From NCBI RefSeq assembly GCF_040958095.1, contig NC_091172.1:6063816-6127815 (forward strand): a stretch of DNA of 64,000 bases. The letters run 5' to 3'. The DNA comes from Procambarus clarkii (taxonomy: Eukaryota > Arthropoda > Malacostraca > Decapoda > Cambaridae). Both the position numbers and the translations under genes were made by a program. Positions within the stretch are counted from its first letter, which is position 1; each line of letters begins with the position of its first letter. The notes under the pieces are model-generated. The model saw only the letters and a list, made by a program, of their open reading frames with translations, was not told the origin of the DNA and did no database searches. Below, piece by piece: positions 15,587 through 58,508 of this stretch.

Positions 15587-15871
15587 TTTACTAGTTGTGT
15601 TTTTACGGGGGTTGAGCTTTGCTCTTTCGGCCCGCCTCTCAACTGTCAATCAACTGTTTACTAACTATTTTTTTTTCCACACCACACACACACACACCCC
15701 AGGAAGCAGCCCGTGACAGCTGACTAACTCCCAGGTACCTATTTACTGCTAGGTAACAGGGGCATTCAGGGTGAAAGAAACTTTGCCCATTTGTTTCTGC
15801 CTCGTGCGGGAATCGAACCCGCGCCACAGAATTACGAGTCCTGCGCGCTATCCACCAGGCTACGAGGCCCC
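15587..15871 (-). mobile_element. SINE with tRNA-Thr-like head and LINE-C-like tail
   Basis: Read on the minus strand, it starts with a tRNA-like head: GCCTCGTAGCCTGGTGGATA, an anticodon stem CAGGA/TTCTG closing the loop CTCGTAA (anticodon CGT, threonine), a B box GGTTCGATTCC, and a closing GCACGAGGC acceptor strand. A core follows (the complement of GTACCTATTTACTGCTAGGT), then a (GT)n stretch. The 3' end reads AAAGCTCAACCCCCGTAAAA plus CACAACTAGT, close to the LINE-C tail at 30905-30960. A second copy is at 25329-25642. The tRNA-like part is a RNA polymerase III promoter relic, not a functional tRNA gene. Confidence 0.88.
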
Positions 15872-15964
15872 TACGAGTGTATGTCAACACTGATGCTGAC
15901 TTTGCTGGCATTGCTGTGAGAGACAACACTCCAGAGTTTGCCTTTGATATTTTATACAGTTTTT

Positions 15965-16018
15965 TTTATATATGTATACATATATATGTATATGTATGCA
16001 TATATATATATATATATA
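15965..16018. repeat. TATATG/(TA)n microsatellite
   Basis: Short alternating TATATG and TA tract. It is followed by two related flanks (16019-16110 and 16140-16230) that both read AAGTGTTGAATTTTGAT...TTGAGTGCATTGTTAATAAGG. This is a local tandem duplication of about 120 bp. Confidence 0.7.
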
Positions 16019-16235
16019 TGTAAGTGTTGAATTTTGATATGTGAGCATATAATTAACTAAATCTAGGCTTGAGTGCATTGTTAATAAGGATAATATTTCT
16101 AGGATAATAATAATAATATATATGTATGCATTTATATGTAAGTGTTGAATTTTGATTTGTAAGCACATAAATCACTAAAGTGAATTGGCTTGAGTGCATT
16201 GTTAATAAGGATAATATTTCTAGGCCTACAGTGTG

Positions 16236-16248
16236 TGTAAATAAATAA

Positions 16249-16440: not shown

Positions 16441-16823
16441 TACATACACACACACTGGGGAGTACCTCAGTTTAAAAGTTTAATCCATTCCTGGAGACAG
16501 CTCGTAACCCAAAAACTCGTAAACCGAAGCTAATTTCACCATAAGTAATAATATACAGTGGTACCTCGGTTTAAGAGTTTAATCCGTTCCTGGAGACAGC
16601 TCGTATTCCGAAAACTCGTATTCTGAAGCTAATTTCCCCATAAGAAATAATGGGAAATAAATTAATCCGTTCCTGACTACCACAAAAACCCCACATCAAA
16701 CTAAATTTTTATATCTAATTCATCTAAATAAACCTACAAAACTATGTTCAAGTTATTACTTACCCTTGTTGATGAATGTTGTAGGCCTATGGAAGATGGT
16801 GAGGAGGGGGAGGAGGAGAGGAG

Positions 16824-18873
16824 TTACTGTTTGGAAGGGGAGTCCCCTTCCATTATCACATCAAGCAGTGAGGACCTTTCTGGTGTGCACTCCCTGGCAC
16901 GTTTTGTCTGAGTACCACTAGGTCCTGGTTGTGGCTCACTGCTCGATTTTTTCACCACAAATCTGTCCATGGAAGCTTGCTTTTCCTTTCTTCGCAAGCT
17001 GTCTCTGTAGTAAGGCATCACATTGTCATTGAAAAGATTATGGCAATGGCCTACTACAGCTTTCTCTGGGTGAGTGTTTTCAATAAAAGTTTGAATCTCT
17101 TCCCACATCTGACACACCTTCTTAATTTCTCCAGAAGGGACATTCACTACTGCTTCATCCTCCTCCACTGGAGAATCATCAGCTGCGTTGTCTTGCTGTT
17201 CCTGTTGAAGGGCTTGGAGTTCGTTGGTGGTCAGTTCTTCATTGTGTTCTTCCACCAACTCCTCCACATCATCACCATCCAATTCCAAGCCCATTTGCCG
17301 GCCCAGAGTAACAATTTCCTCAACAATAGGCGCATCATTTACAGGCTCAAACCCCTCAAAGTCTAGTTCTGTCACACATTCAGGCCACAATTTTCTCCAG
17401 CCAGAGATCAGAGTTCTTTGAGTCACTTCTTGCCAGGCTTTGTCAACAAGTTTTAAAGCACTACAAATGTTAAAATGGTGTTTCTAGAACTCTTTGTGGG
17501 TGAGGTTTGTGGCTTCAGTCACTTCAAAACATTTCTGGAAAAGTGCCCTTTCATAAATTTTCTTAAAATTTGCTATGATTTTCTGGTCCATAGGCTGAAT
17601 TAGAGGAGTGGTGTTAGGAGGAAGGAATTTAACTGTGAGGAATTTATTATATCTGGGCAACAAATCATCTTCCAAGCCTGGGGGATGAGCAGGAGCATTG
17701 TCAAGGAGAAGCAGGGCCTTGAGTGGCAAATGTTTCTCCTGCAGATATTTTTCTATGGCAGGGCACAGCACTTCATTCACCCACTCCGAAAAAATAAGCC
17801 TAGTCTCCCATGCTTTTTTATTAGACTTCCACATCACACACATTTGAGTTTTCTGCACTTTATACTGTTTGAAAACCCTTGGATTTTCAGAATGATACAC
17901 AAGCAAGGGTTTAATTTTCAAATCGCCACTTGCGTTTGAACACAGCACAAGCATAAACCTATCTTTCATAGGCTTGTGTCTGGGCAAGGATTTTTTCTCC
18001 TTGGTAATGTATGTCCTCTTAGGCATTCTTTTCTAAAACAGTCCTGTTTCGTCACAATTAAACACTTGTTGCGGTAGGTATCCCTCAGCCTCTGCAAACT
18101 CTTTATATTCGTCAATAAATCGTTCAGCGGCTGGTTTGTCTGAGCTGGCTGCCTCCCCATGCCTCGCAACACTATGGATACCACTTCTTTTTCTAAATTT
18201 TTCAAACCAGCCCCTGCTTGCCTTAAACTCTTTCGTATCTACATCACTCGTTGCAGGGGTTTTCTTTACAAGGTCTTCATGCAATACCCTGGCTTTCTCA
18301 CAAATGATGGCCTCCGAAACACTATCACTCCTTAATTCCTTGTCGTGTATCCAAATTAATAACAACTTTTCCACTTCTTCAAGCATTTGTGGTCTTTGTT
18401 TCGTCATTGTTCTTACTCCTTTTGCCACTTTAGCACTCATAATCTCATTTTTCTTCTTAAGTATAGTGCATATTGTTGATGTGGCTTTGTTGTACTGCCT
18501 ACAAAGTTCAACAACACGTGTACCATTCTCAGCTTCCGAATGATCTCTTGTTTCTCCTCTATTGTCATCCTGGGAGCCGGTCGGCCGAGCGGACAGCACA
18601 CTGGGCTTGTGATCCTGTGGTCCTGGGTTCGATCCCAGGCGCTGGCGAGAAACAATGGGCAGAGTTTCTTTCACCCTATGCCCCTGTTACCTAGCAGTAA
18701 AATAGGTACCTGGGTGTTAGTCAGCTGTCATGGGCTGCTTCCTGGGGGTGGAGGCCTGGTCGAGGACCGGGCCTCGGGGACACTAAAGCCCCAAAATCAT
18801 CTCAAGATAACCTCAAGATCCTCACATGAGCTTTCTTGCCTTGATCCTTACCACTGGCTTTCTTGGGACCCAT
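16824..18873 (-). pseudogene. Inner Tigger transposase (CENP-B-like HTH, DDE)
   Basis: Starts MGPKKASGKDQGKKAHVR at 18873, is cut by a SINE at 18571-18817 and resumes with the DNA-binding HTH domain (MTIEEKQEIIRK, then VVELCRQYNKATSTICTILK). A CENP-B-type second HTH follows (SVSEAIICEKARVLHEDL). The catalytic DDE domain shows FNCDETGLF, LLLLDNAPAH and TPLIQPMDQKIIANFKK. Two in-frame amber stops replace tryptophan, after CDETGLF (18027 region) and after THKEF (17484 region). A one-base shift lies near the RK start. Without the SINE and stops it would be a typical transposase of about 590 residues. Stop TAA is at 16824. Confidence 0.9.
18571..18817 (+). mobile_element. SINE with tRNA-like head and LINE-B1-like tail, inside transposase ORF
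   Basis: Head GAGCCGGTCGGCCGAGCGGA (A box) and GGTTCGATCCC (B box); core ACCTAGCAGTAAAATAGGTA; 3' tail CCTGGTCGAGGACCGGGCCT, then CTCAAGATAACCTCAAG. It is flanked by ATCC on both sides (18567-18570 and 18818-18821). The tail matches the 3' end of LINE-B1. Other copies are at 33741-33997 and 38485-38733, both on the minus strand. The anticodon arm is degenerate, so the parent tRNA is unclear. Confidence 0.9.
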
Positions 18874-20016
18874 GGTGAGATATATAATAACAAATTTTAT
18901 AGTCAAAGGACCAAAAATCCAACAAAACACTGAAAATCCGGGTGAAGAATTGATGTGGGGTAGTCACTGCGCGCGAGACACTGGTAAACTGAGGGGCGGA
19001 GGGGTGACGATCGCCGTACCATGACGCGCTAGGTCGGCCTGAACGCGTATCAACAAACTCGCGTTCCGAGGTAACCCTCGCCTTCCGAGACACATTTTCC
19101 GAGGAAATCCTGCTCGTATTCCGAAAAACTCGTATACAGGGACACTCGTATTCCAATGTAACACTGTAATGGGAAATGAATTAATCCTTTCCTGACTACC
19201 CAAAAACCTCACTTCAAACTAAATTTTATACCTAATTCATCAAAATCTACACAACAAAAGTATGTTAAAGTTATTACTTACCCTTGCTGATGACAGCTGT
19301 TCGTGTATGGAAGACAGTGAGAAGGAAGGGTGGGAGGAGAGGTGTTACTGTTTGGAAGGGGAGTCCCTTTCCATTATCACATCAGTCAGTGAGGACCCCT
19401 CTGGGGTGCATTCTCTTGCACGTTTTGCCTGCATACCACTAGGTCCTGGTTGTGGCTCACTGCTCGAGTTTCTCACAACGAAGCGGTCCATTGAAGATTG
19501 TTTTTCCCTTCTTCACAAGATTTCTCTGTACTGAAGCATCACATTGTCATTGAAAAGATTTATGCAAAGGCCTACTACAGCTTTCTCTGGGTAAGTCATT
19601 TCAATAAAAGTTTGTATTTCTTCCCACACATGACACCACTTCTTAATGGTTGTAGATGGGACATTCTGTACTGCCTCATCCTCCTCCACTGGATAAACAT
19701 CCTCAGCTGTGTCTTCTTGCTGTTCCTTTCGAAGGGCTTGGAGTTCTTCGGTGGTCAGTTTTTCGAGTTCTTCCACCAACTCCTCCATATCAGCACCATC
19801 TAATTCCAAGCCCATTTGCCGGCCCAGAGTAACACTTTCCTCAACAATAGGCACATCATTTATAGGCTCAAACCCCACAAAGTCTAGTTCTGGCATATAT
19901 TCAGGCCACAATTTTCTCCAGCTAGAGTTCAGGGTTCTTTGAGTCACTTCTTGCCAGGCTTTGTCAACGTACTACGCAACTTAAAGCACTACAAATGTTA
20001 AAATGGTGCTTCCAGA

Positions 20017-20293
20017 TTTTTTTTTTTTATTTTTCTTTTGGAGATATATACAAGAGTTGTTATATTCTTGTACAGCCACTACTACGCATAGCGTTTTGGG
20101 CAGGTCCCTGGAATACAATCCCTGCCGCGAAGAATCGTTGTTACAACCAAGTACACATTTTACTGTTGCGTTAAACAGAGGCTACAGTTTAGGATTTGCG
20201 CCCAGTAAATCCTCCCCGGCCAGGAAACGAACCCATGACAAAGCGCTCGCGGAATGCCAGGCGAGTGTCTTACCACTACACCACGGAGACTGT
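20017..20293 (-). mobile_element. SINE with tRNA-like head and LINE-D-like tail
   Basis: On the minus strand the head reads GTCTCCGTGGTGTAGTGGTA (A box) with B box GGTTCGTTTCC. A spacer of about 100 bp follows, then a tail with CCCAAAACGCTATGCGTAGT, AGTGGCTGTACAAGAATAT and an (A)-rich end. The tail is that of LINE-D at 13060-13195. It sits inside the outer Tigger transposase, between TTCCAGA and AACTCTTTG. Confidence 0.8.
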
Positions 20294-20417
20294 AAACTCT
20301 TTGAGGGTGAGGTTTGTGGCTTCAGTTACTTCAAAACATTTCCAGAAAAGTGCCCTTTCATAAAGTTTCTTAAAATTCGTTATGATTTTCTAGTCCATAG
20401 GCTGAATTAGAGGAGTG

Positions 20418-22740: not shown

Positions 22741-23582
22741 CTGCTTGATACCTACCTGCTTGATGGGGTTCTGGGAGTTCTTCTACTCCCCAAGCCTGGC
22801 CCGAGGCCAGGCTTGACTTGTGAGAGTTTGGTCCACTAGGCTGTTGCTTAGAGCGGCCCGCAGGCCCACATACCCACCACAGCCCGGTTGGTCCGGCACT
22901 CCTTGGAGGAATAAATCTAGTTTCCTCTTGAAAATGTCCACGGTTGTTCCGGCAATATTTCTTATGCTTGCTGGGAGGGTGTTGAACAACCGTGGACCTC
23001 TGATGTTTATACAGTGTTCTCTGATTGTGCCTATGGCACCCCTGCTCTTCACTGGTTCTATTCTACATTTTCTTCCATATCGTTCACTCCAGTTCGTTGT
23101 TATTTAACTGTGTAGATTTGGTACTTGGCCCTCCAGTATCTTCCAGGTGTATATTATTTGATATCTCTCTCGTCTTCTTTCTAGTGAGTACATTTAGAGG
23201 GCTTTGAGACGATCCCAATAATTTAGGTGCTTTATCGCGTCTATGCGTGCTGTATATGTTCTCTGTATTACCTCTATTTCAGCAATCTCTCCTGCTCTGA
23301 AGGGGGAAGCGAGTACTGAGCAGTACTCAAGACGGGACAACAGAAGTGACTTGAAGAGTACAACCATTGTGATGGGATCCCTGGATTTGAAAGTTCTCGT
23401 AATCCATCCTATCATTTTTCTGGCTGTCGCAATATTTGCTTGGTTATGCTCCCTAAACGTTAGGTCGTCAGACATTATTATTCCTAAATCCTTTACATGC
23501 TGTTTTCCTACTATGGGTACATTTGATTGCGTTTTATACCCTGTATTATGTTTAAGGTCCTCATTTTTACCATACCTGAGTA

Positions 23583-24667
23583 CAGTGGTACCTCGGAATG
23601 CGATTGTCCCTGTATGCGAGGTTTTCGGAAGGCGAGCAGTATTTACTCCAAAAATTTGTCTCAGAAGGCGAGGGTTACTTCGGGACGCGAGTTTGTTGAT
23701 ACGCGTACAGGCCGACCTAGCGCGTGGTGGTTCGGCGATCGTCGCCCCTCCGCCCCTCAGTTTACCATTGTCTCGCGCTCAGTGACTACCCCCACATCAA
23801 TTCTTCTCGCGGATTTTCAGTGTTTTGTTGGATTTTTGGTGATTTGTCTATACAATTTGTTATTATATATCTCACCATGGGTCCCAAGAAAGTCAGTGGT
23901 AAGGATAAAGGCCAGAAAGCTCATGTGAGGATGACAATAGAGGAGAAACAAGAGATCATTCGGAAGCATGAGAACGGTACACATGTTGTTGAACTTTGTA
24001 GGCAGTACAACAAAGCCACATCAACAATATGCACTATACTTAAGAAGAAAAATAAGATTATGGGTGCTAAAGTGGCAAAAGGAGTAAAAACATTAACGGC
24101 ACAAAGACCACAAATACTTGAAGAAGTGGAAAAGTTGTTATTAATTTGGATACACGACAAGGAGTTCAGGGGTGATAGTGTTTCGGAGGCCATTATTTGT
24201 GAGAAAGCCAGGGTGTTGCACGAAGACCTTCTAAAGAATACTCCTGCAACGAGTGATGCAGATAAGAAAGAGTTTAAGGCAAGCAGGGGCTGGTTTGAAA
24301 AATTTAGAAAGAGAAGTGGTATCCATAGTGTTACAAGGCATGGGGTTATGTGATGTGATTATGGAAGGGGACTCCCCTTCCAAACAGTAACTCCTCTCCT
24401 CTTCCCCCCTCCTCACCATCTTCCATACGCCTACAGCACTCGACAGCAAGGTAAGTAATAACGGGAACACAGTTTTGTAGGTTTATTTAGATGAATTAGG
24501 TAAATTAGGTATAAAAATTTAGTTTGATGTGGGGTTTTTGGGGTAGTCAGGAACGGATTAATTCATTTCCCTTTATTTCTTATGGGGAAATTAACTTCGG
24601 AATGCGAGTTTTCGGAAGGCGAGGCGTCTCCAGGAACGGATTAAACTCTTATTCTGAGGTATGCCTG
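23583..24667 (+). mobile_element. Internally deleted Tigger, TA-flanked, inside LINE-B2
   Basis: Begins CAGTGGTACCTCGGAATGCG and ends TCTGAGGTATGCCTG, with TA at 23581-23582 and 24668-24669. It is 1085 bp. It encodes the transposase N-terminus only, then jumps to the last codons (GATTATGGAAGGGGACTCCC), so the catalytic domain is deleted. Its removal rejoins the LINE-B2 RT sequence. It belongs to the same Tigger family as 16556-19166. Confidence 0.93.
23877..24353 (+). pseudogene. Tigger transposase N-terminus without catalytic domain
   Basis: Starts MGPKKVSGKDKGQKAHVRMT at 23877 and keeps both HTH domains: VVELCRQYNKATSTICTILK and SVSEAIICEKARVLHEDLLK. It stops after HSVTRHGVM at the deletion junction. 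A DNA-binding-only product of about 158 residues is open here. In other transposon families such truncated proteins can bind ends and act as repressors, but nothing shows expression. Confidence 0.85.
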
Positions 24668-25328
24668 TACCTGGAATTTATCACTGTTAAACATCATGTT
24701 ATTTTCTGATGCCCAGTCGAAAACTTTATTAATATCAGCTTGAAGTTTTTCAATGTCTTCAGCCGAGATAATTTTCATACTGATTTTTGTGTCATCTGCA
24801 AAGGATGATACGAAGCTGTGACTTGTATTTTTGTCTATATCTGATATGAGAATAAGGAAAAGCAGAGGTGCAAGGACTGTACCCTGAGGTACAGAGCTTT
24901 TAACTGCACTTGGACTAGATTAGATTTTATATTGTTGAACGTTACTCGCTGAGTCCTGTTTGACAGAAAACTGAGTATCCAGCGTCCTACTTTACCGGGT
25001 ATTCCCATTGACTTCATTTTGTGTGCTATCACGCCATGGTCACATTTATCGAAAGCCTTTGCGAAGTCCATGTATATCACATCAGCATTCTGTTTTTCTT
25101 CTAATGCCTCGGTGACTTTGTCGTAGTGCTCAAGTAGCTGTGAGAGGCACGATATTCCCGCTCGAAATCCATGTTGGCCTGGGTTGTGAAGGTCATTGGT
25201 CTCCATGAAATTGGTGACCTGACTCCTAATCACTCTCTCAAATACTTTTATTATGTGCGATGTTAGTGCAAGTGGTCTATAATTCTTTGCCAATGCTTTG
25301 CTCCCTCCCTTGTGTAGAGGGGCTATAT

Positions 25329-25642
25329 GTTTACTAGTTGTGTTTACTAGTCGTGTTTTTGCGGGGGTTGAGCTTTGCTCTTTCGGCCCGCCTCTCAACT
25401 GTCAATCAACTGTTTACTAACTACTATTTTTTTTTTTTTTTTTTTTTTTCCCCACACCACACACACACCCCAGGAAGCAGCCCGTGACAGCTGACTAACT
25501 CCCAGGTACCTATTTACTGTTAGGTAACAGGGGCACTTAGGGTGAAAGAAACTTTGCCCATTTGTTTCTGCCTCGTGCGGGAATCGAACCCGCGCCACAG
25601 AATTACGAGTCCTGCGCGCTATCCACCAGGCTACGAGGCCCC
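25329..25642 (-). mobile_element. SINE with tRNA-Thr-like head inside LINE-B2 RT
   Basis: Second copy of the SINE at 15587-15871, collinear with it from the tRNA-like head (right side) to the GTTTACTAGTCGTG tail (left side). It has a longer poly-T run at 25428-25449. It separates KVADML from IAPLHKGG in the LINE-B2 RT. Confidence 0.9.
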
Positions 25643-27266
25643 CCTTGTAGCATGTCTGCTACCTTAAGTGCATCTGGTATCTCCCCCGTGTCCAAGCTCT
25701 TCCTCCACACTATACTGAGTGCCTGTGCTACCGGCACTTTGCATTTCTTTATAAATATTGAATTCCATGAGTCTGGACCTGGGGCCGAGTGCATGGGCAT
25801 GTTTTCAATTTCTCTTTCAAAATTTAGTGCGCTCGTGTTGATATCAGTTATATTTACAGGGGTTTGAATATCCCGCATAAAGAAATTGTCTGGATCTTCC
25901 ACTTTCATGTTGTTTATTGGAGTACTAAACATGTCCTCATACTGCATTTTTAGGATTTCACTAATTTCTTTGTCATCCTCCGTGTATGAACCTTCACTTG
26001 TACGAATAGGTCCAATACTGGCAGTGGTTTTTGCTTTTGATTTTGCATATGTGAAGAAGCATTTTGGATTTTCCTTTATTTCCTGAATTGCTTTCTGTTC
26101 TAACTGCCTTTCTTCAGTTTCATATGAGTGTTTCAATTTCCGCTCAATTTCTTCAATCTCCCTATTTAAATTATTCCTTCTTTGACGGGAAATTCGTGTC
26201 TGCATAAGCAGTTCTGTTATTTTTTCCTGCGTTTATAGTGTCGTCTGCGTTCTCTTTCTACGTTAGATCTCTTTCTGGCTTTCCTCAAAGGAACTTGTTT
26301 CAGACAGAGTTGATACGCTTCCGAAGTCAGTTTTTCTATTACTTCTGTAGGACTTGTATTACTTAAAACAGTTTCCCATGGAATGTTTTTTTTCCCTGTT
26401 TATTATCTCCCAGTCTATCCTTTTATTATTAAAATTGAATTTACTGAATAGCCCCTCTCGCTTTATCAACGTTTTAGGTCTATTCTGAGTATTGATGGTC
26501 GTTTGCACTTCAATGAGCTTGTGATCTGAATATGTGGTATCTGATATCGTAATGTCTCTGATAATGTCTTCATTGTTCGTAAAGACCAGATCTAGAATAT
26601 TTTCATTTCTCGTTGGCTCCGATATCTGCTGATTGAGTGAAAATTTGTCACAGAATCTAAGTAGTTCTCTAATCTGTGGTTGGTAGAATCTAAGTAGTTC
26701 TCTAATCTGTGGTTGGTTAGGTCCTGATAGATTTCCTGGTATAATATTATTGTTTGCTATTCTCCACCTGAGACTAGGCAAGTTGAAGTCACCTAGGAAG
26801 ATAATATCAGGTATCGGGTTCTCCAAATTAACAAGGCTATTCTCTATTTTGTTTATCTGTTCCGTGAATTCCTCAGCCGTTGCATCTGGCGGTTTGTATA
26901 TTAGAATAATCACTAAATTTATTTTCTCTATTTTTAATCCCAGTACCTCTACCACCTCATTTGTAACGTTTAGGAGCTCCGAGCATACAAGGTCTTCCCT
27001 AATATACAGACCCACTCCTCCATGTGACCTAATTTTCCTCTCACACTTGTATAGGTTATATCCTGGAATCCAGATCTCACTGTCTAAGAATTCCCCTGCA
27101 TGGGTTTCTGTGAAAGCTCCAAATATTGCATTTGACTCCGTGAGGAGGCCATTTATGAATTGTACTTTGTTGTTTCTTCTTGTTTTCAGTCCTTGTATGT
27201 TGGCAAAGATGAATGAGGTTACTCTATTAGTGATAGTTTGACTGGGAGACTTTTTCGGCAAGCCCA

Positions 27267-28215
27267 TTATGCGTGGACATATTGAGTTTGTTCTGACCAC
27301 TGCTGATTGTTGTAGGGCAGTTGCCTGTCGTGGTTGTAGTTCCCTTTCGGTGTGTAATTGTATCTGTAATTCTGGAATGCAAGTAGATCTGGCATCCAGT
27401 TCCATACATTCTCCATGCTCCTCCTTTTGAATTCTCTTTCGGTCTGGTATAAAAAATTTATAGAGTTTCCTCCAAATTCATTATCCTGCTTGCCACTCTT
27501 TATGTAGCGTTCCGTGCCTTTCACGTGAAAGTATGGGCAGCTGAGGTCATAGCATTTTCTGTCCTCTAGTGAGGTTTGGCACATGTCAGGATGGAAAAAC
27601 CTACATATTGATCCAAATCGACACTCACCTTTCCTAAGCATATTTAAACATTTTTTGGGATGTTGGTAACTGCATTCTAATCCTTTCTTATTACCAGCAT
27701 ATCTGTCTGCATATGCCCTTTGCATAAAATTTGCATAAGTCTGTCCTTCTGTTCTGACTTGCTCTATCGGGAACCGTTGAAGTGTCTGTACCTATCGAGC
27801 TGTCAGTGCTGTCTGTTACACTTTCTAGTTTACTGTCATCTACATCTGGGCCTACTGAGTCAGAGTTTACAACTTCCTGAGTTTCAGCCTCAGTTTCATC
27901 CCTGACTATAGCCTCCGCCCCTGGTATATTAGAATTGTTGTTGTTCCTTTCCCACTCCTTCTAGATGGCTGGTAGGCTTCCAATGAACGAGGTTTTCCGT
28001 TCATGCGTCATGTTATCTAGAAGGTTTTTTAGGATATTCCAAGCTGGCAGGTCATTTTTACACACCCCGAGCAAGTAGCCAGCTCTCAGTGCCGTGGTGT
28101 TACTCACTCCTGTACAAGCCGAATGAAATCTATTCTTACAGATATAACATTCAATTCCCGTTGCCTTCGACTTTAAGAAGTTACAGTGGCCACAAATTTG
28201 TTTATTTACTCCCAT
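27267..28215 (-). pseudogene. LINE-B2 ORF1: PHD-like finger and CCCH zinc fingers
   Basis: The N-terminus at 28215 reads MGVNKQICGHCNFLKSKATG, then IECYICKNRFHSACTG. This C..C...C..C...H..C pattern is PHD-like, as in ORF1 of some CR1-group LINEs. A stop at 27961 (I*KEW), an acidic linker and a frameshift near 27725 follow. Then come clustered CCCH-type fingers: CSYQHPKKCLN, GECRFGSICRFFHPDMC and RKCYDLSCPYFHVKG. The C-terminal part is Asn/Gln/Tyr-rich. It is presumably the RNA-binding protein of the element. The stop codon TAA overlaps the ATG of ORF2. Confidence 0.82.
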
Positions 28216-28240: not shown

Positions 28241-28566
28241 TAAATATTGATAATATTATATGTATACCGTATATTTGTAATAATATATATGTTTATTTGT
28301 TCTACTGTATGGTCAGTACTTATCGCATGGTCGAGGGTGAGGGTCCCAGAGGCTGTACAGTTGACACGTTGTTGTCCCAGGCCGAGGCTGGAGGCCGTCA
28401 GTTGCCAGATACTTGGGTTATAACACTGATATATTAATTCGCCTGTATTACAATAAGGGATTTTTTACTTTATTTCTGACTTGCAATAGTATTCACTTTC
28501 TCTATTACTAATTTCTCGATCCACATTCCCCTATTACACTTGTTGGAAACCAATTTGCTAGTAAGC
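28241..28566. other. Possible LINE-B2 5' UTR
   Basis: AT-rich, then GC-richer (about 28320-28410), with no open frame of note. Its position directly upstream of ORF1 makes it a candidate 5' UTR and internal promoter of LINE-B2, but I have no second copy to confirm this. Confidence 0.35.
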
Positions 28567-28588
28567 ACACACACACACACACACACAA
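28567..28588. repeat. (CA)n microsatellite
   Basis: Eleven to twelve CA dinucleotides that abut the 5'-truncated end of LINE-C. Confidence 0.9.
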
Positions 28589-28589
28589 G

Positions 28590-30965
28590 GGGACGTTCCC
28601 TCCATGCTAGATTTGATATTTACAAGGAAGGAGGAAGAGATATTTGACATTCAGTACCTTCCTCCCTTGGGTAAAAGTGACCATGTCTTTTTGGGAATAA
28701 AGTATGCAATGCGTTATAAGCTGGAAGAAAATAAGGAGGGTGAAGCAGTTGAAAAACCAGACTTCAGGAGAGGACATTATGGTGACCTTAGAAATTTTTT
28801 TAGTGAGTATAATTGGACAGACTTGATGCTAGGCAAGGAAGTGAATGAGATGTATGTCAAGTTTTGTGAAATATATGATAAAGGCACAAAAAAATTTATA
28901 CCAAAACAGAGATGCAGGGCCAGAAAACAGGATTGGTTCGACAGAAATTGTGAGAGGGCAAGAGACCAAAAGACACAAAAATGGAATCAGTATAGGAAGA
29001 GGCCAAACCCCCAAACATACCAGTGATACAAAGATGCGAGAAACAACTATACAGCAGTAAGGAGAGAGGCAGAAAGAAATTTTGAAAAAGGGATAGCGGA
29101 TAAATGTAAAATAGAACCGGGCCTATTCTACAAATTCATAAACAACAAATTGCAGGTAAAGGATAATATCCAGAGGTTGAAAATGGGAAACAGATTCACG
29201 GAAAATGAAAAGGAAATGTGTGAAACATTAAATGAAAAGTTCCAAAGTGTGTTTGTACAAAATGAAATCTTCAGAGAACCAGACACAATAAGAATTCCAG
29301 AGAACAATATAGAGCGGATATAGGTGTCTAGAGATGAAGTGGAAAATATGCTAAAGGAGCTCGGTAAGAACAAAGCAGCTGGCCCAGATGGAGTTTCACC
29401 ATGGGTTCTGAGAGAATGTGCATCTGAGCTCAGCATTCCACTTCACCTGATCTTTCAGGCATCCCTGTGTACAGGAATCGTAGCAGACGTGTGGAAAGAG
29501 GCTAACATAGTTCCAATCTACAAAAGTGGCAGCAGGGAAGACCCCCTCAATTATAGACCTGTATCATTGACAAGTGTAATAGTGAAAGTATTGGAAAAGC
29601 TAATCAAAACTAAATGGGTAGAACACCTGGAGAGAAATGATATAATATCAGACAGACAGTATGGTTTTCGATCTGGAAGATCCTGTGTATCGAATTTACT
29701 CAGTTTCTATGATCGAGCCACAGAGATATTACAGGAAAGAGATGGTTGGGTTGACTGCATCTATCTGGACCTAAAAAGGCGTTCGACAGAGTTCCACATA
29801 AGAGGTTGTTCTGGAAACTGGAAAATATTGGAGGGGTGACAGGTAAGCTTCTATCATGGATGAAAAATTTTCTGACTGATAGAAAAATGAGGGCAGTAAT
29901 CAGAGGCAATGTATTGGAATGGAGAAATGTCACAAGTGGAGTACCATAGGGTTCAGTTCTTGCACCAGTGATGTTTATTGTGTACATAAATGATCTACCA
30001 GTTGGTATACAGAATTATATGAACATGTTTGCTGATGATGCTAAGATAATAGGAAGGATAAGAAATTTAGATGATTGTCATGCCCTTCAAGAAGACCTGG
30101 ACAAAATAAGTACTGTATATGGAGCACCACTTAGCAAATGGAATTTAATGTTAATAAATGTCATGTTATGGAATATGGAATAGGAGAACATAGACCCCAC
30201 ACAACCTATATATTATGTGAGAAATCTTTAAAGAATTCTGATAAAGAAAGAGATCTAGGGGTGGTTCTAGATAGAAAACTATCACCTGAGGACCACATAA
30301 AGAATATTGTGCAAGGAGCCTATGCTATGCTTTCTAACTTCAGAATTGCATTTAATTACATGGATGGCGATATACTAAAGAAATTGTTCATGACTTTTGT
30401 TAGGCCAAAGCTAGAATATGCAGCTGTTGTGTGGTGCCCATATCTTAAGAAGCACATCAACAAACTGGAAAAGGTGCAAAGACATGCTACTAAGTGGCTC
30501 CCAGAACTGAAGGGTAAGAACTACGAGGAGAGGTTAGAAGCATTAAACATGCCAAAACAAAGAAGACAGAAGAAAAAGGTGATATGATCACTACATACAA
30601 AATAGTAACAGGAATTGATAAAATCGACAGGGAAGATTTCCTGAGACCTGGCACTTCAAGAACAAGAGGTCATAGATTCAAACTAGCTAAACACAGATGC
30701 CGAAGAAATATAAGAAAATTCACCTTCGCAAATAGAGTGGTAGGCGGTTGGAACAAGTTAAGTGAGAAGGTGGTGGAGGCCAAGACCGTCAGTAGTTTCA
30801 AAGCGTTATATGACAAAGAGTGCTGGGAAGACGGGACACCACGAGCTTAGCTCTCATCCTGTAACAACACTTAGGTAATTACACTTAGGTAATTACACAC
30901 ACAAAGAGCCAGAGCTCAACCCCCGCAAACACAACTAGGTGAGTACAACTAGGTGAGTACACACA
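28590..30965 (+). mobile_element. LINE-C, 5'-truncated non-LTR retrotransposon
   Basis: Starts inside the endonuclease domain and runs through RT to a tail with the repeated word TAGGTAATTACACT, then GAGCTCAACCCCCGCAAACA and two copies of ACTAGGTGAGTAC. The tail also occurs in the fragment at 58270-58508 and in the SINEs at 15587 and 25329. Coding is broken by several single-base indels and a nonsense codon. Confidence 0.9.
28604..30850 (+). pseudogene. LINE-C ORF2: endonuclease C-terminus and reverse transcriptase
   Basis: Reads MLDLIFTRKEEEIFDIQYLP, LGKSDHVFLGI (SDH motif), AAGPDGVSPWVL, VPIYKSGSREDPLNYRPVSL, ISDRQYGFRSGRSCVSNLLS, YLDLK (A-run), GSVLAPVMF, NMFADDAKI (catalytic) and KERDLGVVLDRKLSPEDHI. 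Damage: a stop at 29026; loss of one A in the run after YLDLK near 29775, which destroys the KAFDRVPH motif; an amber codon in GVP*GSV near 29948; and shifts near 30150 and 30587. The C-terminus ends KECWEDGTPRA at 30850. Confidence 0.9.
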
Positions 30966-33740: not shown

Positions 33741-33997
33741 ATCTTGAGGTTATCTTGAGGTTATCTTGAGATGATTTCAGGGCTTTTAGTGTCCCCGCGG
33801 CCCGGTCCTCGACCAGGCCTCCACCCCCAGGAAGCAGCCCGTGACAGCTGACTAACACCCAGGTACCTATTTACTGCTAGGTAACAGGGGCATAGGGTGA
33901 AAGAAACTCTGCCCAATGTTTCTCGCCGGCACCTGGGATCGAACCCAGGACCACAGGATCACAAGTCCAGCGTGCTGTCCGCTCGGCCGACCGGCTC
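33741..33997 (-). mobile_element. SINE with tRNA-like head and LINE-B1-like tail
   Basis: Minus-strand copy of the SINE at 18571. The left end has repeated TTATCTTGAGG (the complement of CCTCAAGATAA), then GTCCCCGCGGCCCGGTCCTC. The right end is the tRNA-like GACCGGCTC. The tail word is present three times. Confidence 0.9.
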
Positions 33998-34149: not shown

Positions 34150-34350
34150 CAGCATTTATATATTTTTATTTATTTATTTATATATATACAAGAAGGTCCT
34201 GGCCTGGTCGACGACCGGGCCGCGGGGACACTAAGCCCCGGAAGCACCTCAAGGTAACCTCAAGGTAAGGTACATTGGGATTGTGAGGATACATAGCATA
34301 GTAATTACATTCTTGTAAAGCCACTAGTACGCGCAGCATTTCGGCTAGAA
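34150..34350 (-). mobile_element. LINE-D tail split by a ~70-bp LINE-B1 tail
   Basis: ATATATACAAGAAGGT at the left and AAGGTACATTGGGATTGTGA at the right form a LINE-D tail interrupted by 34197-34268. That insert reads CCTGGTCGACGACCGGGCCG then CCTCAAGGTAACCTC, the last bases of LINE-B1 on the plus strand. AAGGT lies on both sides and fits a target-site duplication. It is an extremely 5'-truncated LINE insertion. Confidence 0.85.
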
Positions 34351-34858: not shown

Positions 34859-34887
34859 TATCTAACACTGCCTATTTTTCTTTTCAG

Positions 34888-38484: not shown

Positions 38485-38733
38485 ATATCTTGTGGTTATC
38501 TTGAGATGATTTTGGGGCTTTTAGTGTCCCCGCGGCCCGGTCCTCGACCAGGCCTCCACCCCCAGGAAGCAGCCTGTGACAGCTGACTAACACCCAGGTA
38601 CCTATTTTACTGCTAGGTTACAGGGGCATAGGGTGAAAGAAACTCTGCCCATTGTTTCTTGCCGGCGCCTGGGATCGAACCCAGGACCACAGGATCACAA
38701 ATCCAGCATGCTGTCTGCTCGGTTGACCCGCTC
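38485..38733 (-). mobile_element. SINE with tRNA-like head and LINE-B1-like tail
   Basis: Third copy of the SINE at 18571: TTATCTTGAGATGATTTTGG, GTCCCCGCGGCCCGGTCCTC, core AGGTACCTATTTTACTGCTA, and tRNA-like GTTGACCCGCTC at the right. It is slightly more diverged in the head (TCGGTTGACC for TCGGCCGACC). Confidence 0.88.
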
Positions 38734-38878
38734 CTGGTCGGCCGGCGATGGCAAAAGTGTTATTCTAAAAGATAATTTTAAGTAGTAATTTGTAGCAAAA
38801 TTTGAAGAATATTAATAGGTACATTGTAGTAAAATTTTAGGATTATCAACGATACGTTGTAGCATAATTTGAGAACTA

Positions 38879-41831: not shown

Positions 41832-41964
41832 GGACTCATACGTCAGGCTGCGAGCAGCCGCGTCTAACAGCCTGGTTGATCAGTCCAGCAACCAGGAGGC
41901 CTGGTCGACGACCGGGCCGCGGGGACACTGAGCCCCGGAAGCACCTCAAGGTAGCCTCAAGGTA
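41832..41964 (+). mobile_element. LINE-B1 3' end, ~130-bp copy
   Basis: Starts GGACTCATACGTCAGGCTGC and ends GGAAGCACCTCAAGGTAGCC plus TCAAGGTAA. It matches the last about 130 bp of LINE-B1 and is nested in the Penelope-like element. Confidence 0.92.
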
Positions 41965-42554
41965 AGAATTTAATACCCTATTAATACCACCTCACCCCAT
42001 CCACCTCACTCAAATGTAGATATAAACAAATCGAAGATGTGTAAGTTCTATTCAGTTGTGTATGTGTAAGCTAAAGTCTTTGAAAATGTAATAAGTTTTA
42101 CGAAACGCGCTCAAGTGTCGCGTCAGACTAGAAATAAAAATGAATTTTGGAGAATTGATTTTTGAATTACCACCAACAGTGAAAAGAAACGTACGAAAGA
42201 TTGAGAAAATTTGTGTTAGAATTATTAATCTTACTTTTTCGGTCATATTTAATAATGTATGAACAAGGCTTTGTACATGTAAATGGCACAAGTGAATGTG
42301 TGGATGAGTATGTTTAGCATGTTCAGGGATTTAAACTGAAGGGCTGTGTGTTGCCTGTAAATTAGAGCTAGTTTTTGTTCTGATGGCAGATTTTTGCTGG
42401 GTGATGATGGGCTTAAGATAATTTGCAGTAGTTGAACCCCATGCACAGATATTGTATGTAAGATAGGGATAAATTAGCAAGTAGTATAATGAGAGGAGAA
42501 CAGAGTGGGGAACATAATATCTGATTTTTGAGACAGTTTCTGATACTTTTCTGG

Positions 42555-46905: not shown

Positions 46906-46929
46906 GGGTTCCTGTACCTCTTTCCCCTG

Positions 46930-48800: not shown

Positions 48801-48945
48801 TTACATTCAACGCTGTTTTTTTGGCTGTGTTTTATGTGGATGCTGAAGTTGTCTCTTCTATGTATAGGCCAAGGAACTTTGCATCATTTTTATTGCTGAT
48901 GTTAACATTGTCTATCTGAAGTTTAATAAACTAAATATTTTTCAG

Positions 48946-49100: not shown

Positions 49101-49269
49101 GTATGACCTGAATGTTGTAACAAAATTTCTTGCTAGTAGTACAATAGTAAAATAATTAGACTGAAAAAGTATTCCAGTCTTGCAAAATAAAGAGTATAAT
49201 GTACTCCTGATAAAATAATAATATGGTACTGTATTTTTAAATAAATCTATTCAACATTATTTGGCTATC
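49101..49269. other. Start of intron 3
   Basis: AT-rich intronic sequence directly after the donor. Nothing recognised. Confidence 0.6.
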
Positions 49270-51716: not shown

Positions 51717-51718
51717 TA

Positions 51719-52600: not shown

Positions 52601-53695
52601 ACCGGACCGGACTGATCAGCTGAAAGAGGCGGAGCCGCGGGAAGACCCTTGGGTTTAGACATTGAGCAAGAAGCGCCTGAAACCAGGGCTGGGCCGGCCA
52701 CCAAGGAGCCAACAGGACTACTCTCCCCTGGTAAGTCTCCAACTGAGCCAGGATCCGGAGCGACAACCAGACCGGTGGGAAGAGGTACAGGTAACTCAAC
52801 CTCGACCAGTCCAGCCGAAAGGCATCGATCCTGATGACCTCGCAGTCTGGGAAGGGCGCCACATACACTGGAAGACGCCTTGACCACGCTGATGCGAAGA
52901 GGTCCACCTCTGGGTGTCCATACGTCCGGCAGAGCCAACAGAAAGAGTCGGGGTTGACTATCCATTCCGTGAAAAAAAGGGAATTACGTCCACCAGAACG
53001 TTTGACACCCCCTGAACATGAACCGCCAGGAGAGCCAAATCCCGAGAACTCAGCAGATGAGTCACCCGAAGCGACCAGCCCCACAAAGAATCAAGGACCG
53101 CATCGAACCTCCTCGGTCCAGGCAAAGAATCACCGGGGAGCAGTCCGATTGGAGCCGGATCATTGCTCCTCGAGCGACAGGATTCCTCTGAAGCGAATGC
53201 CACACCACCACAAACTCCCGCGCCGTGCTGTGAGCTTGACAAGGATGGACCCCACTGACCCTGGCCGGCCTTGTGAGCATTTGTCACAAAGCCCCAGCAG
53301 AGAGACTAGGCATCTGTGAACACATTGAGCGAGGGCTCGGGGAGGCGCCACGGCACAGAACCCTGAAAAACCCGCAGTGGAAGCTGGCGACACAGCAGCC
53401 GACGCAAGGCTCCCGGGATCCGAACCCATCGATCGCGAGAGCGGCGGAAGGGACGACCCCAATACGCGTCCCGGAGGTCCAGAGACACTATCTAGGCACC
53501 TGGTGCCAAAAGCAGCCAGATCTGAGACAGAGTGGTCATCCGAACGGAGACGGCAAAAGACCCAGAAATTCAGACAAGATAAAGTCCAGTATGAACCGCA
53601 GATCCACACAAACCCATTTCAGAACTGAAAACAGGCGGGAAACCCACCTGAGGGACGTTGTCGTTTCGACCATACCCAAGTGAACCCCATTCCCG
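52601..53695 (-). pseudogene. DIRS-2 reverse transcriptase (partial) and RNase H
   Basis: Contains SLDLRDAYWGRPFRRSRDRW (LDLRDAYW retained), IRLQSDCSPVILCLDRGGSM, LALLAVHVQGVSNVLVDV and CRTYGHPEVDLFASAWSRR. The middle of RT between the LDLRDAYW block and the RNase H is deleted relative to DIRS-1, so the YLDD box is missing. RT N-terminal residues (VSRLFSVLKWVCVDLRFILD) are at 53620-53690. Confidence 0.8.
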
Positions 53696-53714
53696 GATGT
53701 CCTGACAGAGCACA

Positions 53715-54125
53715 GGAGAAGAGGCCTCCTTGAAGGCCAAGTACCAAATCTACACAGTAAAATAACAACGTACTGGAGTGAACGATATGGAAGAAAATGC
53801 AGAATAGAACAAGTGAAGAGCAGGGGTGCCATAGGCACAATCAAAGAACACTGCATAAACATCAGAGGTCCACGGTTGTTCAACACCTTCCCAGCAAGCA
53901 TAAGAAATATTGCCGAACAACCATGGACATCTTCAAGAGGAAACTAGATTTATTCCTCCAAGTAGTGCCAGACCAACCGGGCTGTGGTGGGTATGTGGTC
54001 CTGTGGGCCGCTCCAAGCAACAGCCTAGTGGACCAAACTCTCACAAGTCAAGCCTGGCCTCGGGCCGGGTTTGGGGAGTAGAAGAACTCCCAGAACCCCA
54101 TCAACCAGGTATCAACCAGGCCTGC
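53715..54125 (+). mobile_element. LINE-B2 3' end inside DIRS-2
   Basis: Encodes NRTSEEQGCHRHNQRTLHKH-type C-terminal sequence, with INIRGPRLFN decayed, and DIFKRKLDLFLQVVPDQPGC. The tail TCAACCAGGTATCAACCAGG follows. It is 5'-truncated and of opposite orientation to DIRS-2, splitting gag-like from RT. Confidence 0.88.
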
Positions 54126-55830
54126 CCTGCCAGCCCCGATCCCCTCGAAGGAGGAGGAGCGACCCAATGCTACCGCAGGCCGGAGGAAACAACCCGAAAT
54201 GCCCATGAATTGTGGGGCCAGGTGAGAGCAAACAGCGCGAGCCTTCCCCCAATCGCCCGGTCAACGGGGCGACCCGCGAAAGGGCCGACGTCCCCTACGA
54301 GAGCCTGACCGATGCTTAGAGCGATCACCGCGCCGACCAGATGCCGACGCCTCAAGAGTTGCCAGCCCCGAATCTGGCACTACTGGCTTACGACGACTGA
54401 AGGAACCCTGAGACCTGGCATGACCCTTTCGGGCAGTACCACCATGGCATCCCCAGAGAACCAACAAGTCCGACATAGGCCGGCAACTAGACGAAGCTGC
54501 TTGCAGAAAATGCAACACCGCAGACACTGCAAACTGCAATGGACAAAAAGTGGACGAAAATCTAAGAGCCAGGGCCCAAGCCGATTCCAAAGAGTGGACG
54601 AGCACCGCCTGTCGGCATGCGAGACAAGAAGCAAAGAACAGGGACACAATCTCCCTCGGAATCGGCGCAAACAACTTTAACAAAGCAGCCGACGCCCGAG
54701 CTGCTGAAGCAAACACACTGGACATCGGCCCAGATCCCAGTTCCTGCACATCCTCGCCAAGCCAGTCCGAAGACAGCTCCAGCAGAGAAAAGAAACGCAA
54801 GACCGAAGTCAAATGCCCACGGGCGCGCAATTCTTTGGCCACCAGGGACGCCGAAAGGGAGGGGAACTGCACGTGAAGCTGAATCTGACCGACATCACAT
54901 GGAAGCACGGGGGCGAACAAGCACGCATTGAGGTGCTCAAATTCGCCCCCTAGGTAAACCTGAACAACCGTAGTCACTTTCCGCCATTCAAGCGCACGGG
55001 TCCGACAGAACGAATGCCACGCCCCCATGAAAAGAAAGTGCAGTCTGCCAACTAGAAGACTCTGGCACCTTGTAACGCATCCAGAAAGAAAACGAGGAGC
55101 CAAACTCGAAAGAAGAAGGATCCATTATCGAGGCGTAATCCGGGTCTCGCAAGAGGTAAGCTGCAAGGGCTTCCCATGCCACCTTTGATGTGATGCGGGA
55201 AGCCGTAAACCTCTGGAAGGAGGGAACCGAGGAACCGAAGGGAACCCGGAACCGAACCCGGGGAGGAGTCGCACCCATATCAAACTCGTACAGGGAGGGG
55301 TTGTTGTTGTTGTTTAAGATTCGCTACCTGGAACAAAAAATCCCAAGTAGCACGGGCTATGGTGAGCCCGTAGACAGGGAGGGGGGATAGGAAAACCCCT
55401 TTCCCTGTAACAACAAGCCCTGCGCCGAGGGTACCAACACCCAAGCGGGGTCAAACGAGGCCCAAGCACCCCAAGTTAACTCCTCCTCAGCCCTGGAAAT
55501 CTCCACGTCAGAACTCGGGGCCGAGCAGTCCTCCAAACCCTCTTACTCTGGAGAAAAGGCAGAGTCAGCTGGAAAAGCCGGGATGAAGGGGGGCCCCGCT
55601 GGCACGGCCCAAGGGCTCCAGCAGGAAGAACAGGCTCGAATGTCTCCGCCGCCGATCCGGAAGGGACATTCCCCGAATCCGCCCCAGACTCACCACCAGG
55701 CAAACCCTGCCCTGACTCTGAAACCCTCAGACATTTGGAAGCCGGGAGCAGGGAGCAGGGGGGAGGAAGGGGAGCAGGATGAACCACAGCAGGGGAAGGA
55801 CTAGGGGGCTGCAGATGAAACAAAAGTCAA
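54126..55830 (-). pseudogene. DIRS-2 Gag-like ORF
   Basis: Minus-strand blocks match DIRS-1: PASKCLRVSESGQGLPGGES, YLLRDPDYASIMDPSSFEFG, VQVYLGGEFEHLNACLFAPV, LRFFSLLELSSDWLGEDVQE and CRPMSDLLVLWG. A 280-codon segment (55103-54261) is open. A short insertion with GTTGTTGTTGTTGTTTAAGA at 55295-55390 breaks the N-terminal part. Confidence 0.75.
55295..55390. mobile_element. Short retroposon-like insertion in DIRS-2 gag
   Basis: About 95 bp with (TTG)n at the left, then ATTCGCTACCTGGAACAAAA and GTAGCACGGGCTATGGTGAG. It is absent from DIRS-1 at the same place. The simple-repeat end suggests a truncated retroposon tail. Confidence 0.6.
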
Positions 55831-57021
55831 GGCGACTAACACCCTCAAGTCCGGGTCCCTATAACCAAAGCGGGGCAGCTACGGGGCATCCAGAAAGGCA
55901 ACCAATATTGCGTGTTGCAGCAACCTAAACCTTGCATGCAACGTTGAAGCTGCTTGCATCCGAATATCAATCTTTGGACTGGGTGAATTGGAGTACAAAC
56001 ATGGAACACCACTCGCAGGACTCCGGGTGAAAGGTGTCATTGACCCAACAAGCAGCATGGCAGAGGCAAAGATGGTGAGTGTCACCCTGAGGAGAGGAGT
56101 CAAGGGGACAGAGCAACCTTCAGATAACCCTGAAGCCGCAAGGGCAGTACTTGCAGGACACCTAGGGAAGGTGGCCCTAGGTGTATGCACCCCCCCAGTA
56201 CTCTTGTGTTACTCCTGGCTCGCACAATACCAAAACTGAACAACAACACTGCACTGCAGTGCTGTTTAAAGGTTGGAGCCAGAGTCGATCAACCATTCGC
56301 GCTCACAACAGCCTGTCACAACAGAGTTGCTGGCGTGGAGGTCTTGGAACCCCCACCCTCCCCCCTTCCCCTCCCCTGGAGAGGAGGATTGCACAAACGG
56401 ATGCGCGGCGTTTGTGGTGATGTCATACTTGTTTTCTTAGTTTTGATTGGGGAGTTCTGTTGCTTGTTTGGCTTTTGGTTTGCAATTATTTTTTGATCAG
56501 CAGTAGTTTGTTTTAGAATTCCTACCTTTCTGGGTGCCTGACCTGGTAGATGGCAGACAAAGACTGCCTCCAATTACACTGTGGTGTCTTTAGGCCATTG
56601 CTTCTCGTGCCTCTCTTGAGGGGGCCAGGTTCTGGCTCTGGTCCCTGGTAGGCCTAGAACTCCTTCGATTGACTGTTGCCACTGTCTAATATTTACACAT
56701 CAGCCCAGTATAGCTCCGGGGAGCCGAAGGGGTTTCTCCAAAGAAAGGCAGAACTCCCTCCAAACATATAGAAACACGCAAACAAGCAAACGTCACACTC
56801 CTCCGCCTCGCCGCTCATTCGTATAGCCCTCCCCACGCCGGCTACCTAGCATTCCACTTGGGAAGCTAATCATCAAACAACATAAAAAACTACTGATCAG
56901 AGGGTGGGAGTGAGGGAGGGTTGCCCAGGAGCCTCCGGTGCTCACCCAGAAATTGGCGTTTCATTACATTTAACGCTGGTTTTCTGTGGGGAACCCCTAT
57001 GACTTCCTGGAGTTACATACC

Positions 57022-57722
57022 CAAAGAACCAAGCAAATTTTGTGACAGCCATAAAAATGATCAGATGAATTATGGGAACATTCAAATCCAGGGATCCCAT
57101 CACAATGGTTGTACTCTTCAAGTCACTTGTGTTGTCCCGTCTTGAGTACTGCTCAGTACTCACTTCCCCCTTCAGAGCAGGAGAGATTGCTGAAATAGAG
57201 GGAATACAGAGAACATTTTCGGCACGCATACAGGCGATAAAGTACCTAAATTATTGGGATTGTCTCAAAGCCCTCCAAATGTACTCAATAAAAAGAAGAT
57301 GAGAGAGATATCAATTAATATAGACATGGAAGATACTGGAGGGCTAAGTACCAAATCTAGACAGTAAAATAACAATGTACTGGAGTGGATGATGTGGAAG
57401 AAAATGCAGAATAGAACCAGTGAAGAGCAGAGGTGCCATAGGCACAATCGAACATTGTATAAACATCATTGGTCTGTGGTTCAACACCCTCCAGCGAGCA
57501 TAAGAAATATTGCCGGAACAACCGTGGACATCTTCAAGGGGAAACTAAATTCTTTCCTCCAAGGAGTGCCGGACCAACCGGGCTGTGGTGGATATGTGGG
57601 CCTGCGGGGCGCTCCAAGCAACAGCCTTGTGGACCAAACTCTCACAAGTCAAGCCTGGCCTTGGGCCGGGTTTGGGGAGTAGAAGAACTCCCAGAAACCT
57701 CATCAACCAGGTATCAACCAGA
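57022..57722 (+). mobile_element. LINE-B2 3' end inside DIRS-3
   Basis: Encodes GTFKSRDPITMVVLFKSLVL, SRLEYCSVLTSPFRAGEIAE, ARIQAIKYLNYWDCLKALQM and DIFKGKLNSFLQGVPDQPGC. It has the tail CATCAACCAGGTATCAACCA. About 700 bp, with frameshifts near 57300 and 57450. DIRS terminal sequence continues on both sides. Confidence 0.9.
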
Positions 57723-58270
57723 TATGAGGAAAAGGGGGACTTACCTGGGAGGCGGCCTACCACGTAATCCTCTGTGCGACGTCGAGATAACTGGCCAACC
57801 TTCAACCCAAATGAACACAGGAACGCCCAGGAGCAGGAACGTTAACCAAATAACAGGCGGCCAGGACCCTGTTTGACCTCCAAAGTCTCTGCACCTGAAT
57901 ATCAGCCCAAGACATGTTGCCAAACACGGCAGCCAGTACAGCAAACTTCCTAACATCATGGGTCACGAGGATAGACCGCAGGCTGGCTAGACTTAATAAC
58001 CCTGCAAATGACCTGGGAGACCCGAGCCCTGGAACAGGGAACGAGGGAAACTGGATCAACCCAAAGTGCATCCCCAGCCACCGAAGCACGCAGATAACGG
58101 TGAAGAGCTGCAACTGGACACGACACATGATGCAACCCCGGCCTGACCAACCAAGCATCAATGACGCAAGGACCCCTCCGGAATCCAGCCGTCTCGCTTT
58201 TCGCCGAAAAAGAAGGCTACAACCAAACCGACCAACCAACCCGACCAACCAAACCGACCGACTGGAAACT

Positions 58271-58508
58271 TAGTACACAGATGAGCCACAGAGACGTTAG
58301 AATTTTTTCAGTGTCAGAGTCGTTAATAAATGGAATGCACTAGGTAGTGATGTGGTGGAGGCTGACTCCATACACAGTTTCAAATGTAGATATGATAGAG
58401 CCTAGTAGGCTCAGGAATCTGTACACCAGTTGATTGACAGTTGACAGGCGGGACCAAAGAGACAAAGCCCAACCCCCACAAGGACAATTAGGTGAGCAAT
58501 TAGGTGAG
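58271..58508 (+). mobile_element. LINE-C-like 3' end inside DIRS-3
   Basis: Reads DVRIFSVSESLINGMH-type C-terminal residues, then VVEADSIHSFK in shifted frames. The tail is AGCCCAACCCCCACAAGGAC then AATTAGGTGAGCAATTAGGT, a variant of the LINE-C tail (CTCAACCCCCGCAAACACAA). It retains TTGATTGACAGTTGACAGGC, which the SINEs at 15587 and 25329 also carry next to their tails. Confidence 0.82.

Follow-up and report, generated by a model that had tools for sequence, protein, structure and literature searches.

SINEs ending in the tails of three different LINEs in a 64-kb stretch of the crayfish Procambarus clarkii genome

The sharing of a 3' tail between a short interspersed element (SINE) and a long interspersed element (LINE) is a textbook sign that the SINE is mobilised by the LINE. 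A stretch of 64,000 nucleotides of the crayfish Procambarus clarkii (RefSeq assembly GCF_040958095.1, 4.03 Gb; contig NC_091172.1, positions 6,063,816 to 6,127,815 of the forward strand), called here the window, raises the question of whether three such partnerships lie side by side in one locus and whether they arose independently, as a first-pass annotation had proposed. From sequence comparison, it appears very probable that tRNA-derived SINEs owe their mobility to LINEs of three lineages, acting in trans through copied 3' tails; the SINE bodies, by contrast with the annotation, turned out to be related.

To locate the elements, four of the six SINEs were compared by BLAST with the window, and tail and body pieces with the window and 68 genome loci (fetched loci carry L numbers below). 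All six SINEs, and the LINE tails as well, were found where the annotation had placed them, within 7 bases except for the A tail of SINE-D. The SINEs are:

18572..18819, plus strand: SINE-B copy 1, with a tRNA-like head, core and LINE-B tail, in a Tigger-like DNA transposon copy
33748..33997, minus strand: SINE-B copy 2 (body and tail both 96% identical to the query pieces)
38486..38734, minus strand: SINE-B copy 3 (body 93% and tail 97% identical to the query pieces)
15583..15871, minus strand: SINE-C copy 1, with a tRNA head (15798-15868), core, GT/A-rich junction and LINE-C tail
25334..25642, minus strand: SINE-C copy 2, with a tRNA head (25569-25639), within the LINE-B2 open reading frame (ORF)
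20017..20294, minus strand (matched 20043-20290, A tail to about 20017): SINE-D, with a tRNA-like head, diverged core, shortened LINE-D tail and poly(A), in a second Tigger-like transposon copy

The SINE-C head was called as tRNA-Thr by ARAGORN over the whole window and scored 44.7 bits as an Rfam tRNA (window 13000-39000, E up to 0.5). Neither ARAGORN nor Rfam tRNA gave a call for the SINE-B and SINE-D heads, in which a GGTTCG-type box B was present by eye.

The LINE copies and tails of the three lineages are the following:

8949..11816, minus strand: LINE-B1 copy, with an endonuclease and reverse transcriptase (RT) ORF at 8985-11816 (Pfam RVT_1 1.8e-24, Exo_endo_phos_2 2.6e-13)
8949-9020, minus strand: LINE-B1 tail, beginning within the last ORF codons
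5480..6018, plus strand: LINE-B1 3' end, tail 5957-6018
34201..34268, plus strand: LINE-B tail, about 68 nt long and preceded by almost no LINE sequence, inside a LINE-D tail (34154-34344)
41833..41965, plus strand: 5'-truncated LINE-B copy, tail 41893-41965
22753..27477, minus strand: LINE-B2, of a lineage related to B1, with a B1-like two-hairpin tail, interrupted by SINE-C and a transposon
28565..30953, plus strand: LINE-C1 copy, with an RT piece at 29324-29836 (RVT_1 5.4e-08) and tail 30890-30953, treated as one element by eye
58318..58511, plus strand: LINE-C2 3' end, tail 58425-58503
1879..3309, plus strand: LINE-D-family ORF fragment, endonuclease (Pfam Exo_endo_phos 2e-05), followed by the D3 tail at 3560
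13059..13159, plus strand: LINE-D tail
1368-1471, minus strand: LINE-D tail
34267-34344, minus strand: LINE-D tail
36109-36205, minus strand: LINE-D tail
3560 and 14371, plus strand: D3 tails, related to LINE-D

The likeness of the tails was then weighed against chance, each pairwise score of tails or bodies being set against 2000 dinucleotide shuffles. SINE-B and LINE-B1 tails scored 100 (best shuffle 30), with 63 of 71 columns identical (7 mismatches and 1 gap); SINE-C and LINE-C2 tails scored 97 (best shuffle 30; 69/81 columns), SINE-C and the tail of the LINE-C1-type copy L065 scored 93 (best shuffle 24), and SINE-D and LINE-D tails scored 76 (best shuffle 29), with 41/43 columns identical in a hairpin block. 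None of the 2000 shuffles reached the score of any of these matched pairs, whereas the six crossed pairings scored 12-14 and were equalled by 606 to 1806 shuffles, which is noise. Chance is thus excluded as the source of the likeness, and the claim that three SINE families end in the tails of three different LINEs was borne out. The similarity was also confined to the tail, as had been anticipated, in the two pairs covered by the body check: the SINE bodies scored only 16 (B/B1) and 15 (C/C2) against the LINE 3' sequences, values equalled by 1221 and 923 of the shuffles, so that a similarity reaching into the bodies is excluded for these pairs. The terminal repeat units agree by eye as well, both for the B pair (CCTCAAGGTAA / AACCTCAAGAT) and for the C pair (AACTAGGTGAGTAC / AACTAGTAAACAC); one of the sets compared for these repeats excluded L001 and L009, along with the centre copies of LINE-C2 and any tail adjoining a body.

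The assignment of partners from this one locus, which the annotation had considered feasible, succeeded for the LINE lineage and failed for the subfamily. The SINE-B tail is closer to a LINE-B copy, L095 (58/63 columns), than to LINE-B1, over a shorter alignment, and the tail of a variant, SINE-B', matches L095 in 59/62 columns, again over a shorter alignment, vs. 64/70 for LINE-B1. L095 is one of 20 places fetched among 4,645 LINE-B junction-pattern matches in the genome; the other 19 ranged from no better than LINE-B1 up to short matches of high identity, such as L091 (45/46). For SINE-C, the better match of the two LINE-C tails in the window is C2 at 58425 (E 3e-13 and 9e-14 for the two SINE-C tails in the window) rather than C1 at 30890 (2e-5 and 2e-6).

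An RT is present in each of the three LINE lineages, directly in B1 and C1, through the relative L040 for C2 (RVT_1 2e-33) and through the relative L206 for D (RVT_1 4.5e-26), and further copies of the elements occur elsewhere in the genome. The RT piece of LINE-B2 is 72% identical to that of B1 over 138 amino acids, and the RT regions of B1 and C2 are 33% identical over 346 columns. Regarding LINE-D, L206 was the only one of six fetched stretches with an RT upstream of the tail, no RT-like ORF being seen by eye in the other five. The endonuclease-side ORF of L206 had no match in Pfam, and peptides of L206 recur by eye in the window ORFs 1879-3312 and 8368-8916, the latter without a Pfam match. 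Two further LINE-D loci, L089 and L090, agree over roughly 1 kb ending at the tail (97% identity, in two pieces that overlap), a segment that includes an ORF end matching LINE-B1 weakly (E = 7.6e-4) and nothing in Pfam. From the order of their domains and their short 3' repeats, the B, C and D LINEs may belong to a CR1/L2-like clade.

Composite elements of this kind could also be produced by nested or adjacent insertions in which a LINE fragment landed beside a SINE, and LINE-B tails with almost no LINE upstream do occur, both in the window (34201) and as solo tails elsewhere. The junctions between body and tail are nevertheless fixed: an adjoining tail was found in 20 of 25 B-type body hits, starting 2-4 nt past the matched body, and in 36 of 36 D-type hits, with a gap of 2 nt in the D centre copies, while the surroundings differ by eye. 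These counts include L001 and L009, which overlap the window, and the D hits come mostly from a search with the entire SINE and are hence a biased sample. Moreover, the empty sites enclose the whole composite in two copies. Three copies of a Tigger/pogo-like DNA transposon (Tigger being the name we presume to apply) lie at 16480-22170 and 23581-24670, with DDE_1 and HTH_Tnp_Tc5 domains in copy 1, and the sibling copies provide the empty sites against which the insertions of SINE-B and SINE-D were checked. The SINE at 18572 is flanked by a duplicated ATCCT, and its flanks joined minus the repeat match two empty siblings in 70/75 and 74/77 positions; the joined flanks of SINE-D at 20017 match transposon copy 1 in 72/77, with one gap column and, by eye, no more than 1-2 nt duplicated. 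Clean insertion at an empty site is therefore shown for two SINE copies. For SINE-C at 25334, a translated alignment places the two flanks on neighbouring parts of LINE-B1 that overlap by 15 nt. Nested insertion, rejected on the empty sites and the fixed junctions, is an extremely improbable origin for the composites. As a separate observation, a LINE-C2 3' end by eye meets a SINE body tail-to-tail in at least two of the 30 LINE-C2 loci (L053 and L054, near 1300-1500).

A pairwise match carries no direction, so the LINEs might have taken their tails from the SINEs. However, the B tail takes in the stop codon of the LINE-B1 ORF together with roughly the 11 codons before it, and LINE-B2 has a counterpart built in the same way, so that the tail looks old in the LINE, and related SINE bodies bear several unrelated tails; transfer from SINE to LINE is accordingly very improbable, and the tails were most likely acquired from the LINEs, perhaps by template switching. 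The main hairpin of tail B consists of 9 pairs, which were standard in 45 of 45 cells in LINE-B1, SINE-B and three LINE-B2 copies, a count that covers these five sequences, with no shuffle control, and uses a stem drawn from their own folds. Two of the nine pairs differ on both sides between B1/SINE-B and B2 and still pair, two more vary on one side, and a second hairpin lies downstream of the main one. In tail C, pair 3 of the outer stem is by eye G-C in C1 and C2, G-U in C3 and A-U in L024; L011 also has A-U at this pair, with another pair broken. The set examined for this stem kept 61 stretches after removal of those with N or shorter than 50 nt. The double use of the B tail as coding sequence of the LINE ORF represents a constraint worth testing.

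The case of SINE-D is more complex. This element had been described as ending in GTAGTGG, but the sequence goes on for ~33 nt before poly(A) begins, and by eye it lacks about 40 nt of the LINE-D tail. Its LINE-D tail might thus be a relic, with mobilisation now depending on the poly(A) end and on a LINE that recognises poly(A) rather than on LINE-D. Most of 30 SINE-D copies inspected end in TCT(C) plus an A-rich run, whereas LINE-D ends in (AAAT)n, and a more diverged copy in L027 keeps a AATAAATAAA-like terminal repeat. On the other hand, the hairpin block still matches LINE-D in 41/43 columns and is also kept in two D copies, L026:3125 and L036:348, picked up incidentally in sequence flanking other loci, which makes the relic explanation unlikely, yet the most plausible of the rivals considered here. 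By eye (L111-L120 vs. window 20043-20290), the SINE-D of the window resembles a second form, SINE-D2, minus 15 nt between two GGACC repeats, and SINE-D2 appears to have given rise to SINE-D through this loss.

Several observations weigh against mobilisation of the three SINEs by the LINEs whose tails they carry. The SINE-B tails match LINE-B1 inexactly; SINE-D, lacking the (AAAT)n end and ~40 nt of the LINE-D tail and ending in poly(A), has a less certain present driver; and the RT of L206 lies 900 nt above its D tail, these intervening 900 nt being unread. In addition, an adjoining B, C or D tail was missing from 5 of the 25 B-type and from 9 of the 19 C-type body hits, and another 5 of those 19 bear a B tail. 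Body hits that are tail-less or B-tailed are regarded as fragments or other SINE subfamilies.

The independence of the three SINEs, in contrast, did not survive comparison of their bodies. The cores of SINE-B and SINE-C are identical in 96/103 columns and their heads are related, neither likeness being reached in 2000 shuffles, and SINE-D carries a weaker form of the core, its score being reached by 1/2000 shuffles against B and 4/2000 against C. The SINE-D head showed no clear relation (25/2000 to B, 283/2000 to C), and a diverged D copy (L027:792-844) forms a bridge, with 80% identity to core B across 53 nt. Among 40 core copies in the sampled DNA, counted by eye and excluding L001 and L009 owing to their overlap with the window, 23 had a B tail, 5 a C tail and 1 a D tail, and 11 were fragments or other forms. 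Four of the 23 B-tailed copies (L006:1946, L016:392, L020 and L027:1161) are SINE-B', in which a junction of ACAAAAA/ATAAAAA type precedes the tail, and in L038:2439 and L051:1320 the same core is followed by other 3' regions without match to B, C or D. In SINE-C, the core is separated from the tail by a GT- and A-rich stretch that may be the former end of a poly(A)-type SINE predating the addition of the tail. The body common to B and C and the diverged core of D thus point to one SINE body coupled to different tails. A broader proposal, for and against which the evidence seems to us evenly balanced, is that a single core-bearing body repeatedly exchanged its 3' tail and that at least three, and probably more, LINE lineages amplified it over overlapping periods, the solo LINE tails being by-products of the same tail-bounded reverse transcription. 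If so, the genome would be a natural experiment on the recognition of LINE RNA with the body held nearly constant.

Solo LINE-B tails, as in the window at 34201, were examined further in three samples that have copies in common. In the first, obtained with a pattern blind to cuts inside the tail, the LINE sequence breaks off 2-7 nt above the hairpin in 8 of 40 copies, and the flanks of these eight had no mutual similarity. In the second, with a stricter 3' anchor, 2 of 40 were cut at 0-9 nt, 4 inside the tail, 5 at 10-60 nt and 29 further away or not at all (P = 0.31), some of the short cases being indels by eye. The third comprised all 62 plus-strand copies among 100 places listed, all on contig 1, with 6 cut at 0-9 nt, 3 inside, 8 at 10-60 nt and 45 further or uncut (P = 0.006, a value not recalculated for the 4 of 6 boundary cases that are clean by eye). 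A pile-up of truncations at the tail boundary is only suggested by these data and not established.

Abundances and ages rest on the flanks of fetched loci. The LINE-B1 tail (54 nt, up to 1 mismatch) occurs at 17,082 places in the genome and the SINE-D2 tail pattern at 9,597, with no hit for the reversed-pattern control in the former and none for the control in the latter. A pattern search for LINE-D with the exact SINE-D tail returned SINE-D2 in 10 of 10 fetched places, 3 of them 5'-truncated. No candidates came from a search of the whole genome with SINE-C, whose further copies are known from sampled flanks only. Mean divergence from a consensus of the same copies, which underestimates the age of small sets, was 2.9% for SINE-B (10 copies, 0.8-7.9%), 1.1% for SINE-C bodies (4 copies), 2.5% for LINE-B1 (36 copies chosen by exact anchor) and 0.4% for SINE-D2 (7 copies chosen by exact tail and so biased towards young ones). 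Partial copies and L058, identical to L057, were left out of the SINE-B set, in which L011 and L024 share flanks and are possibly one duplicated insertion. The 40 scored LINE-D matches, best hits only, were 98-100% identical to the window copy; 37 of them lay on the plus strand, probably reflecting the order in which candidates were scored. Within the biases of small samples, exact-anchor picks and self-built consensus sequences, the pairs look young and overlapping in age.

A mechanism in keeping with these results would start from one conserved-core SINE body to which different LINE tails had been joined. The RNA made by Pol III from the tRNA-like head would bear the copied tail at its 3' end, and the RT of the LINE would recognise the tail hairpin or hairpins, nick the target and prime on the short terminal repeats. 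The SINE RNA would then serve as template for the LINE with the same tail, and reading of the tail-B hairpin by the RT is likewise predicted.

Outside these elements, the window holds 24-nt tandem repeats at 34736-36037 within an RS-like ORF that abounds in Arg-Ser/Arg-Asp dipeptides and has no match in Pfam, and, at 1-1355, a 30-nt tandem array that is open in several frames. Several related long repeats with ORFs lie in both orientations at 44000-62000; three scanned ORFs among them had no Pfam match, and the repeats are perhaps DIRS-like, as a guess.

A pair of this type in the eel, UnaSINE and UnaL2, reportedly involves a stem-loop in the tail. Eel pairs of the stringent type (Ohshima 2013; PMC3747384) resemble the crayfish ones in recognition of the 3' tail and in their short terminal repeats; in the crayfish, the tail-B hairpin also encodes the last residues of the LINE ORF. 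The same source mentions 58 SINEs with LINE-type tails of the stringent kind, and its Table 1 lists Nve-Nin-DC-SINE-1, -2 and -3 with the tails of L2-22_NV, CR1-5_NV and CR1-15_NV. As in the crayfish, one genome, here that of a different animal, Nematostella, thus holds several SINEs with a different LINE tail each; the Nematostella SINEs are of tRNA type and take their name from a conserved domain, Nin-DC, and their tails are of CR1/L2 LINEs. HaSE1, HaSE2 and HaSE3 of Helicoverpa armigera mix SINE modules, and template switching was proposed for them (PMC3272025). There, too, head plus core or body plus tail are common to families of one genome and one tail is shared with an RTE LINE, but the 3' regions are one LINE tail and one derived from mariner, whereas three LINE lineages are involved in the crayfish. 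A survey of decapod repeats (PMC10454600) describes a recent SINE peak in two Procambarus species, with partners unmentioned in the passages concerned. No report of the present SINE/LINE pairs was found in the open-licence texts of PMC (subscription literature lay outside the search), nor any of SINE/LINE partners in decapods in its open-licence literature on crustaceans and crayfish.

The crayfish case is unusually clear, but the phenomenon is not new in kind. Its value lies in the presence in one genome of three LINE lineages and of SINEs with related bodies, a matched set for testing what each RT reads, with the tail as the main variable.

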